A DNA stretch of 64,000 nt from contig JAOAEA010000001.1 of the NCBI GenBank assembly GCA_026417035.1, positions 1 to 64,000 of the forward strand. The letters run 5' to 3'. A model generated the notes under the pieces. That model was given only the letters and a program-made list of their open reading frames with translations, had not been told where the DNA came from and did not search any database. Positions 235-16,855 of this stretch are shown here, in pieces (the stretch's first letter is position 1; each line of letters opens with the position of its first letter). A program made the position numbers and the translations under genes. This stretch comes from Burkholderiales bacterium (GTDB taxonomy: Bacteria; Pseudomonadota; Gammaproteobacteria; Burkholderiales; SG8-39).

Positions 235-1634
235 CCGGCACCGGGCTGATGGGCGGCTTCCTCGCCCTGATGGCGGGCGGGGTGCCGGTCGCGATCGCGA
301 TGGCCGGAGCGTCGCTCATCTACGTCATGGCCACGGGCAACGTGCCCGACTTCGTCGTCATCCACAGGATGTACGGCGGCGTGGACTCGTTCCCGCTGCT
401 CGCCGTGCCCTTCTTCATCTTCGCCGGCAACCTGATGAACTCGGCCGGCATCACCAACCGCATCTACAACTTCGCCCTCGCGCTGGTGGGCTGGCTCAAG
501 GGCGGCCTCGGGCACGTCAACGTCGTGGGCTCGATGGTGTTCGCGGGCATGTCGGGGACCGCGATCGCGGACGCCGCGGGCCTGGGCACCATCGAGATCA
601 AGGCCATGAAGGACCACGGCTACTCGACCGAGTTCGCGGTCGGCGTGACCGCCGCCTCGGCCACCGTCGGCCCGATCATCCCGCCGTCGCTGCCGTTCGT
701 GATCTACGGGATGATGGCGGGCGTCTCGATCGGCCAGCTCTTCCTCGCGGGCGTGGTGCCCGGCATCCTGATGGGCCTGATCATGATGCTGACGGTCGCC
801 TACTTCGCCTACACGCGGAACTACGGGCGCGACACCAAGTTCTCGCTGCCGAAGCTCACCAAGGCCGGCGTCGAGGTGGTCATCACGCTCGCCTTCCCTT
901 TCGGCATCTGGCTGCTCGCGGCGGCGGGCGTCGCGCCGAAATACGCGATCGGCATCGCCTTCGTCGGGCTGCTCGTCCTCGACCGCGTCTTCCGTTTCGA
1001 CGCGGTGATGGCGCTCCTCTCGCCGATCCTGCTCGTCGGCGGCATGACGATGGGCATCTTCACGCCGACCGAGGGCGCGGTCGCCGCGAGCGCCTGGGCG
1101 ATGTTCCTCGGCCTCGTCTGGTACCGCTCGCTCGACTGGCGCAAGCTCGCGAAGATCACGATGGACACGATCGAGACCACCGCCGCGGTGCTGCTCATCG
1201 TCGCGGCGGCGTCGATCTTCGGCTGGCTGCTCACCGTCACGCGCGTGACCGACGCGGTGGCGGCCTGGGTGCTCGCGTTCACCCACGAGAAGTGGGTCTT
1301 CCTCCTGCTCGCCAACGCGCTCATGCTCTTCGTCGGATGCTTCCTCGAGCCGGTGGCGGCGATCACGCTGCTCGTGCCGATCCTCGTCCCGATCTGCCAG
1401 AGCCTCGGCGTCGACCTCGTGCACTTCGGCCTGATCATGGTGCTCAACCTGATGATCGGCCTGCTGCACCCGCCGATGGGCACGGTGCTCTTCGTGCTCG
1501 CGCGCGTGTCCAAGCTCTCGTTCGAACGCACGACCGTGGCGATCCTCCCCTGGCTCGTGCCGCTCTTCGTCACGCTGGGCCTCGTGACGTACGTGCCCGA
1601 CATCGTGCTGTGGCTGCCGCGCCAGTTCTTCTAG
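231..1634 (+). CDS. dctM: TRAP transporter large permease (DctM)
   Basis: A 467-residue, almost entirely hydrophobic protein of the DctM family, the ion-coupled translocating subunit of a TRAP transporter in the inner membrane. Family-typical stretches are visible: NLMNSAGITNRIYNFA near residue 70, GMSGTAIADAAGLGTIEI near residue 110, TVGPIIPPSLPFVIYG near residue 145, and PTEGAVAASAW near residue 280. An upstream in-frame start at 135 exists, but the ATG at 231 is preferred because it overlaps the dctQ stop and removes a non-homologous basic leader. The next genes encode a DUF1537 kinase and a PdxA-like dehydrogenase, a combination known from D-threonate, L-threonate and D-erythronate use, so a four-carbon sugar acid is the likely cargo (inference). 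The stop codon lies inside a dispersed repeat. Confidence 0.95.
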   Translation: MTGTGLMGGFLALMAGGVPVAIAMAGASLIYVMATGNVPDFVVIHRMYGGVDSFPLLAVPFFIFAGNLMNSAGITNRIYNFALALVGWLKGGLGHVNVVGSMVFAGMSGTAIADAAGLGTIEIKAMKDHGYSTEFAVGVTAASATVGPIIPPSLPFVIYGMMAGVSIGQLFLAGVVPGILMGLIMMLTVAYFAYTRNYGRDTKFSLPKLTKAGVEVVITLAFPFGIWLLAAAGVAPKYAIGIAFVGLLVLDRVFRFDAVMALLSPILLVGGMTMGIFTPTEGAVAASAWAMFLGLVWYRSLDWRKLAKITMDTIETTAAVLLIVAAASIFGWLLTVTRVTDAVAAWVLAFTHEKWVFLLLANALMLFVGCFLEPVAAITLLVPILVPICQSLGVDLVHFGLIMVLNLMIGLLHPPMGTVLFVLARVSKLSFERTTVAILPWLVPLFVTLGLVTYVPDIVLWLPRQFF

Positions 1635-1732
1635 GGAAGCTCTGATCTGTTCGCCGAATGGATCAGGGCTTACTCCGACGTCGGGGGTCGGAGGGGGATG
1701 TGCCCCTCTTTGCTCAGACGTTACCTAGGGCG
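1631..1732 (+). repeat. dispersed repeat family 1, copy A
   Basis: This copy begins CTAGGGA, so it contains the TAG stop of dctM, and ends at CTAGGGCG. It aligns along its whole length, in the other orientation, with 11377-11477; the first 69 bases differ at about 13 positions by my alignment. It contains a hairpin, GAGGGG-GATGTG-CCCCTC, at 1691-1708, and the other copy has a G-run/C-run stem in the same place with different bases. The element fills most of the dctM-to-kinase gap and ends 27 bases before the kinase start. No protein is encoded. It may act as a transcript-end or attenuator structure. Confidence 0.8.
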
Positions 1733-3969: not shown

Positions 3970-4014
3970 CCGGCCCGGGCGCGCACCGCGTCCTCGGCGG
4001 CGACGGATCCGTTC

Positions 4015-11376: not shown

Positions 11377-11477
11377 CGCCCTGGGGAACGTCCAAGAGGG
11401 GGAAACCGATCCCCCTTCGACCGCCGACACCAGAGGAACCCCCGATCCCTTCGGCGAACCGATCAGAGCGTCCCTAG
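11377..11477 (-). repeat. dispersed repeat family 1, copy B
   Basis: Read on the minus strand it begins CTAGGGACGCTCTGATC and ends at CCAGGGCG, matching copy A at 1631-1732. Its first bases contain the TAG stop of the ankyrin-repeat gene, exactly as copy A contains the dctM stop. A GGGGG/CCCCC stem (11398-11402 with 11411-11415) sits where copy A has its hairpin. It occupies most of the space between convergent rsmE and the ankyrin gene. Confidence 0.8.
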
Positions 11478-12052
11478 CGGGCCGCCCCCGCGATGAGCGC
11501 GACGAGCTCGGTGTTGCCGCTGCGGCGCGCGAGGTCGAGCGCGCTCGCGCCATCGGCGTCCCGGGCGTCGAGCGGGACGCCGCGTCCGGCGATGAAGAGG
11601 CGCACCGCGATCGTGTCGCCGCGGCGCACGGCGTCGAGGAACTGGCGCGGATCGTGGTAGGCGAGGCCCATCGCCGCGAGGTCCTTGCGGGCGTCGATCG
11701 CGCGGCGTTCCGCGGCCGTCGAACCGCTTTCCCCCGTGGCACTCCTCTCCGACAGCGCCGCCGCCGAGCGTGCGATCGCAGCGAGGCGTTCGCGGTCCTC
11801 GGGCGAGAGCTGCGGCAGGATGTCGCGCGCGATCGCGTTGGCCTCGGCGTTGCGGCCGGCGAGGATATCGCGCACCGCCTGGTCCACGGCGCGCTGCTCG
11901 GTGCCGGGCGGCGCGGTCGCGGCGGTGTCCATCAGCCCCTGCACGAGCGCGAGGATCCGGCTCAAAGGCAGCGGATCGTCCGGGGGCGCGGCGCGCACCG
12001 GCGCGAGCGCGAGGGCGAGGACGAACGTGAGAGCGAGGCTCGCGAGGCGCAT
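11474..12052 (-). CDS. exported ankyrin-repeat protein
   Basis: A 192-residue protein with a clear signal peptide (residues 1-22, hydrophobic core LASLALTFVLALALA, cleavage after VRA), so it is probably periplasmic. The middle is helical and charged, without a recognised domain. Residues about 135-190 form one and a half ankyrin repeats (DAVRRGDTIAVRLFIAGRG, then DADGASALDLARRSGNTEL). The start ATG at 12052 follows GGGAG. The long frame continuing to 14092 on this strand is an artefact of GC-rich DNA. The stop codon lies in repeat family 1. The function is unknown; ankyrin repeats only suggest protein binding. Confidence 0.82.
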   Translation of the reverse strand: MRLASLALTFVLALALAPVRAAPPDDPLPLSRILALVQGLMDTAATAPPGTEQRAVDQAVRDILAGRNAEANAIARDILPQLSPEDRERLAAIARSAAALSERSATGESGSTAAERRAIDARKDLAAMGLAYHDPRQFLDAVRRGDTIAVRLFIAGRGVPLDARDADGASALDLARRSGNTELVALIAGAAR

Positions 12053-16056: not shown

Positions 16057-16740
16057 ATGAGAAGGGTCGTCATCATCGGCATCGTGGCGGCGGCTTGCGC
16101 ACCCGCCGCGTTCGCCCAGGAGGCGGGTTTCATCGGGCTGCGCGCCGACCCGGCGCGGGCAAGCGCCGCGGGTGGCTTCGGGTTGCGGCTGGGCGCGGCC
16201 TCCGAGGCGGCGCGGTGGGGCTTTGCCGCGCCGGCGGCATCGGACCGGGTGGCCTGGAGCCCGCGCCTCACCGCGGACGGCGCGTCGTCTTGGGCGTATG
16301 GCGGCATCGGCGATGGCCGTGCCTTCGCGTTCCCCGCCCAGACCGCAGCCGCCCTCGACTACCGCTTCGAGCGCTGGACGCTCTCGAGCTCGCTGCGCCA
16401 GGGCCTGGGGGAGCGGTCGACGGCGATCGACCTCGGCGCGCGCTATGGGTTCTCGCTCGCGCCGCGCCACAGCCTCGCCCTGCTCGGTTCGGTGGGGCTC
16501 GGCGACCACAGCGCCATGCGCGCGCTCGCGATGAGCGAGCTCGACGCCTTGCGCGTGCGGCCGCCCGGCCTGGGGTTCCGGGACGTGGGAGCGCAGCTGT
16601 CCATGCTCTACACGTACAGCGAGACCTGGTACGTGAACACCACGCTCGGCTACGCGCGCCTGCTCGGCGACCCGGCGGACGCGGGCACGCCGGACCGCAA
16701 CGTCACCTCGGTCGGGGCGTACTTCGGCTACCGGTTCTAG
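16057..16740 (+). CDS. outer-membrane beta-barrel protein, MipA/OmpV-like
   Basis: A 227-residue protein with a signal peptide (RRVVIIGIVAAACAPAAFA, cleavage before QEAG) and alternating beta-strands ending in the C-terminal Phe required by the Bam machinery. The second half (LDYRFERWTLSSSLRQGLG, ARYGFSLAPRHSLALLG, YVNTTLGYARLLGDPADAG, SVGAYFGYRF) resembles the MipA/OmpV scaffold family. The first half does not show the usual MipA start, so the family call is moderate. The start ATG at 16057 follows GAGAGGGG; an upstream in-frame ATG at 16031 lacks a site. The region before it holds a palindrome, a stem-loop and a -10-like TTATAT. The stop is followed closely by copy B of repeat family 2. Confidence 0.7.
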   Translation: MRRVVIIGIVAAACAPAAFAQEAGFIGLRADPARASAAGGFGLRLGAASEAARWGFAAPAASDRVAWSPRLTADGASSWAYGGIGDGRAFAFPAQTAAALDYRFERWTLSSSLRQGLGERSTAIDLGARYGFSLAPRHSLALLGSVGLGDHSAMRALAMSELDALRVRPPGLGFRDVGAQLSMLYTYSETWYVNTTLGYARLLGDPADAGTPDRNVTSVGAYFGYRF

Positions 16741-16758
16741 GCGCTGACGCGAAACGCC

Positions 16759-16855
16759 GGAACGACGGCGCGGACGCCTCCGGGGGAAACGCTCCCGGGA
16801 GCGACGAGCGCGCTTCGCGTCACCGGCTTCGGGGATCCCGAAAGGGCGTGGCCCC
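16759..16855 (+). repeat. dispersed repeat family 2, copy B
   Basis: It begins GGAACGACGGCG and ends GTGGCCCC, aligning over about 98 bases with the reverse complement of 30402-30499 at roughly 80% identity by eye. Shared blocks include GAGCGCG-TTCGCGTC and CGGGGATCC. It starts 18 bases after the outer-membrane protein stop. The sequence TGACGCGAAACGC just before it (16745-16757) is nearly complementary to GCGCTTCGCGTCA inside it (16810-16822), so a larger stem is possible. Confidence 0.8.

Follow-up and report, generated by a model that had tools for sequence, protein, structure and literature searches.

Two unrelated genes in the window analysed here, a stretch of 64 kb from the start of a contig of a Burkholderiales bacterium, end at the same point of a dispersed repeat. 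This raises the question of how one repeat comes to lie on both stop codons. The initial annotation of this DNA suggested either that insertion trims or replaces gene ends, or that a transcript-end element is spreading. We consider it very probable that the repeat is a non-autonomous element of the IS5 family (a MITE), now decayed.

The two window copies and their family

The first gene, which we take with the initial annotation to be dctM, encoding the large subunit of a TRAP transporter, lies at 231-1634 on the plus strand. Copy A of the repeat follows it at 1635-1724 (plus strand, approximately 90 bp), with the left inverted repeat GGAAGCTCTGATC and a right inverted repeat that reads GTAACGTCTGAGC inward. 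It is flanked by CTAG on both sides. The left CTAG (1631-1634) includes the dctM stop codon, TAG at 1632-1634, and the right one lies at 1725-1728; the rule of 4-bp duplication comes from copies in a sister genus (see below). The second gene, named an ankyrin-repeat gene in the initial annotation, lies at 11474-12052 on the minus strand. Copy B (11385-11473, minus strand, approximately 89 bp) adjoins its end; the left target word in the sense of the element is CTAG at 11474-11477, in which the minus-strand TAG (11474-11476) is the stop codon, and the right one, at 11381-11384, reads CCAG on the minus strand, a decayed CTAG.

With both target words included, the copies span 1631-1728 (plus) and 11381-11477 (minus). 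Aligned within the window they are 76.8% identical over 112 columns (E 5e-18), so that the relationship first claimed between 1631-1732 and the reverse complement of 11377-11477 is real, as is the common start CTAGGGA with its TAG serving as gene stop. The extent given for the repeat was slightly off: 1729-1732 lie outside the element, and the right target word of copy B starts at 11381.

The resemblance is not near-random, and the two copies are not the only ones in the genome. A covariance model built from 15 copies matched the source assembly (3.77 Mb, 249 contigs, 89.6% complete) 40 times with E<=1e-3, or at least 39 family places once one opposite-strand duplicate was removed. This is a lower bound, since 150 of 1844 candidates were scored; weak copies were retained, of which the lowest-scoring few could be chance matches. 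Searching directly at the DNA level with copy B recovered fewer copies and missed copy A. The consensus, CTAG-GGAAGCTCTGATC...GTTCAGAC(A/G)TTCC-CTAG, is about 98 bases long including both CTAGs. Read inward, its ends are GGAAGCTCTGATC and GGAA(C/T)GTCTGAAC, imperfect terminal inverted repeats. Inside, the left part contains a long hairpin and the right part one with a GGGGG/CCCCC stem. At about 90 bp, the element has no transposase gene inside.

The family in the source genome is old, with a mean pairwise identity of 75% between copies. As the source assembly yielded no IS5_4 transposase, it is probably also dead. A similar sequence, CAGCG.GATGCGAAACGC...TGACAGC, follows two of the copies, in locus L046 (after 1598) and in the flank of L053, and a similar GACGCGAAACGCCGG..CGACGGCG follows a CTAG at 16737-16770 of the window. 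These sequences possibly represent another repeat family.

Target duplication and empty sites

In the source genome the 4-mers flanking the copies are mostly decayed, and the duplication of the target was for this reason proved in younger copies from a sister genus. Related elements are also present in further genera of this bacterial family: 4 of the 61 genomes surveyed, the source genome included, had matches at E<=0.001, and a survey with stricter filters (E<=1e-4) found copies in 8 of 98. Two genomes of one sister genus, G004 and G029, hold young copies, with a median identity of 0.97 among 39 cores of 100 bp. After removal of both-strand doubles, 60 fetched stretches yielded 54 unique copies, of which 40 have identical flanking 4-mers (shuffles: mean 12.3, maximum 23 in 5000). 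Identical flanks persist in 24 of the 36 copies with a left 4-mer other than CTAG, and the left 4-mer is YTAR in 39 of 54. Judged by these flanks, the element makes a 4-bp YTAR target duplication, usually of CTAG. In the sister genus the duplicated words also include TTAG, CTAA and CTAT, among others, which rules out a duplication of TA only.

These flanks also bear on a different origin, in which the repeat would be an IS630/Tc1-like MITE comparable to RUP of pneumococcus, or else a REP element that owes its movement to a Y1 (RAYT) transposase. The size of about 100 bp, the TA ends and the palindromic parts would suit either. The duplication is of 4 bp and not of TA alone, however, and the IS630 domain PF13358 was found in 0 of 5 genomes. 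A REP/BIME with a RAYT was rejected for the same 4-bp duplication and for want of a Y1 partner: PF01797 has no match in the source genome, G004 or G029, and one in G018. As the full-length elements that share these ends code for IS5-family transposases (see below), we give this origin next to no weight against an IS5-type MITE.

Among the sister-genus loci, neighbouring tandem copies in L325, L349 and L352 have one CTAA/TTAG word in common, which is what would be expected had one element entered the target duplication of the next. Two further loci, L119 and L141 (CAMBSA010000183 and CAMBSA010000302), come from a public MAG labelled Bordetella parapertussis and have the contig positions of G029, which shares its genus with G004, a MAG that bears no label beyond Betaproteobacteria. 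The species name thus appears to be mistaken.

Sites without the element were found at three loci. G001, which belongs to the same genus as the source, had 0 family copies in both surveys, and at its dctM locus the gene and the sequence downstream of copy A are continuous. The dctM product ends in LPRQFF* in the window (TAG) and equally in the element-free G001 (TGA), G009 (TAG) and G021 (TGA). It ends in LPRRFF* (TAG) in G016 and LPKRFF* (TAA) in G027, and three more distant relatives, G038, G023 and G057, have other end residues at nearly equal length. The ankyrin gene of the window ends in LIAGAAR*, at a point within 1-2 residues of the ends of its relatives (LLAAGARAR* in G014, LIESAGAK* in G010); no ankyrin gene was found adjoining the copy B site in G001. 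Of four copies whose flanks were searched in G001, one (L045) gave a match, and there the gene tail has equal length in the filled source and the empty G001 (ASVAREITSP* and, as read by eye from the G001 alignment, ASVARQLAPR*).

The comparison of orthologues that the initial annotation had called for thus tells against its proposal that insertion trims or replaces gene ends. The idea arose from the start of both window copies at a stop codon, but at dctM, the ankyrin gene and L045 the ends match those of element-free relatives. Both window genes retain native C-termini, and trimming, refuted at these loci, is extremely unlikely as an explanation of the repeat. Empty sites occur in G001 at two loci and in G014 at one, the exact CTAG allele not being seen within the genus: the word at dctM is CTGA in G001, and CTAG in G009 and G016. 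From the latter two we infer that CTAG preceded the insertion of copy A.

An IS5-type MITE probably reached these sites as follows. An IS5 transposase acting in trans would cut at the inverted repeats, and the excised element would be pasted into a CTAG, which would be copied on both sides. With CTAG scarce and a third of its occurrences being C-TAG stops, insertion would often fall on the last codon of a gene, and the duplicated CTAG would leave the stop intact and the insertion nearly harmless. The dctM stop would have survived in this way, because CTAG was duplicated.

CTAG scarcity, stop codons and the question of terminators

The source genome has 72% G+C, and CTAG occurs 149 times in 650 kb. 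Base composition would predict 1649 occurrences, a trinucleotide model 648; relative to base composition the word is depleted about 11-fold. Outside the elements there are 142 free CTAGs in the 650 kb, comprising 49 gene stops, 24 sites inside genes and 69 intergenic ones. Exact abutment on a predicted stop codon was seen in 22 of the 39 copies, where random intergenic placement predicts 0.35 of 39. The suspicion of a mobile-type repeat that clusters at stop codons was therefore justified. In all, 24 stops are abutted (11 on the left and 13 on the right, with two copies abutting on both sides), and 22 of these are TAG. Set against all free CTAGs (0.345 at stops), abutment by 22 of 39 is in excess (p 0.004), and against non-coding CTAGs (49/118, 0.415) the excess is slight (p 0.043), with gene ends that are approximate, the predictor being a non-standard, purpose-written codon-score script. 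In the sister genus, a crude but supportive count found that ends with a stop-codon word close an open frame of at least 45 codons in 45 of 79 cases, versus 67 of 192 shifted-frame controls.

Copies thus settle at gene ends because their target is strongly depleted and a third of what remains consists of C-TAG stops. The choice of target is enough to account for most copies at stops; the remaining excess over non-coding CTAGs may reflect removal of harmful insertions. The clustering follows neatly from target choice, which alone accounts for unrelated genes ending at one point of the repeat. The rule is simple: where target words survive mainly in stop codons, transposons are steered harmlessly to gene ends.

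CTAGAAT, which we take to resemble a -10 promoter box, occurs 19 times in the 650 kb. The right junction of three copies (L027, L247 and L249) reads TAG-AAT and lies upstream of a gene. In the window, CTAGAAT is also seen just upstream of predicted genes at 4014, 10566, 13959 and 23089. We offer tentatively, as somewhat less than an even prospect, a wider safe-harbour rule for CTAG-targeting IS5 elements and MITEs in G+C-rich, CTAG-depleted genomes. The remaining targets would often be amber stops and -10 boxes (TAGAAT), both restored by the duplication, and stop-adjacent insertions would accumulate as neutral passengers beyond target frequency, and some may later act as terminators.

An alternative is that selection keeps the repeat at gene ends as a structured RNA or terminator. 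In its favour, 22 of 39 copies lie against stop codons, and copy A and the consensus fold far better than their shuffles (z -4.7 and -6.3). Copy B, however, folds no better than shuffles (z -0.5), and the association itself is mostly predicted by CTAG targeting alone. Copies face the stop in either orientation about equally often (11 vs 13, p 0.84), which disfavours selection as terminators. Across 32 aligned copies of the 39, cells paired in the named structure amount to 83.5% (shuffles 83.3%) and double changes number 16 (shuffles 16.3), so that there is no covariation beyond shuffles. Versions of the structure slid along the alignment pair less, as should happen when the structure was taken from the consensus itself, and stem positions are no better conserved than positions elsewhere (0.852 vs 0.857). 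No terminator-like site was called at copy A or copy B, and Rfam gave no match in ten sources, the window and nine loci.

We therefore regard a selected terminator as improbable beside an IS5-type MITE, and with it the proposal of a spreading transcript-end element. The hairpins that had been noted at the same internal place of both copies, with different base pairs, fit the GGGGG/CCCCC stem in their position, but the differences are not compensatory and show no covariation. Most likely the hairpins are leftovers of nested inverted repeats that are decaying without compensation. Repeats at stop codons should accordingly not be read as terminators without caution.

Full-length relatives and known elements

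A scan of genome contigs for one end sequence of the family gave at least 120 stretches. Among the 80 matches listed, most come from beta- and gammaproteobacterial MAGs and some from Acidobacteria, and single ones from elsewhere, which may be chance. At two loci an inverted partner end lies 1.16 and 1.18 kb away and one transposase is enclosed. The first, L173 in Variovorax sp. J22P271, measures 1.16 kb and is flanked by CTAG/CTAG; the second, L185 in an Acetobacteraceae MAG, measures 1.18 kb and is flanked by TTAG/CTAG. Both have the ends TAGGGAATCTCTGATCAAG, to which the left end of the family is close. Their proteins match NF033581, 'IS5 family transposase', with 348 and 356 bits (cut-off 140), and also PF01609 plus PF05598.

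NF033581 was above cut-off in 8 of 80 genomes of the same bacterial family as the source. Eleven such loci were examined for ends along with L173 and L185; four of the 11 passed a motif filter, and three of these four have paired ends, matching at 15 of 16 positions in L286 and at 11-12 of 16 in L287 and L288. In L286 (genome G008) an IS5_4 transposase is enclosed by the ends GGGAATCTCTGAACAA and GGGAATGTCTGAACAA, each bordered by TA. The end GGGAATGTCTGAACAA is the right end of many source-genome copies, and TAGGGAATGTCTGAACAA, the right end in many family copies, recurs unchanged as an end of L286. The window copies resemble L173, L185 and L286 in end sequence and TA/YTAR flanks; they differ in being 90 bp long, whereas these relatives are coding elements of 1.16-1.19 kb. 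The defining features of an IS5-type MITE that were tested, namely ends, YTAR duplication, lack of a transposase gene and empty sites, were all recognized in the sequences compared.

The source assembly, 89.6% complete, has 0 matches to NF033581. Its one match to PF01609 is a partial DDE transposase (L285, contig C6, 5084-5251, minus strand) at a contig end, which could be a remnant or an IS broken by the assembly; no family terminal repeat was seen next to it. No clear partner transposase was found in G004 or G029, the genomes with young copies. When the PF01609 matches of all three genomes were checked for terminal repeats as possible parents, none fitted. Inverted ends 1.66 kb apart on contig C224 of G004 proved to be two separate mini copies, and an end pair on C243 of the same genome encloses ordinary genes.

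Among described elements, MITEPsy1 of Pseudomonas syringae pv. phaseolicola comes closest. Its report gives a length of 100 nt, inverted repeats that begin GGAAGGTCTGA, a 4-nt duplication of CTAG or YTAA, and demonstrated transposition, with the IS5-type ISPsy2 as parent (PMC3189936). The window family works in the same manner, the sequence comparison covering the printed ends. It differs in that it is about 90 bp long, has the ends GGAAGCTCTGATC and GGAA(C/T)GTCTGAAC, and comprises at least 39 old copies with no parent found in the genome. Escherichia coli IS5 similarly duplicates 4 bp (Py-T-A-Pu), most commonly CTAG (15 of 24 listed sites), but is a full element with a transposase, unlike the window repeat (PMC5493358). 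RUP and Correia/NEMIS are likewise bacterial MITEs, of about 100-155 bp, and RUP differs in its tie to IS630-Spn1 and its TA target (PMC2229807). Literature searches returned no title on the ~90-bp family of the window. Its kind, an IS5-type MITE, is ordinary.

In several MAGs of Pseudomonadales and Pseudohongiella (L117, L137, L152, L160 and others) the same end is followed directly by its inverse, GGAAGCTCTGATCAAGTCAGAGCTTCC. This arrangement is a different, simpler hairpin element.
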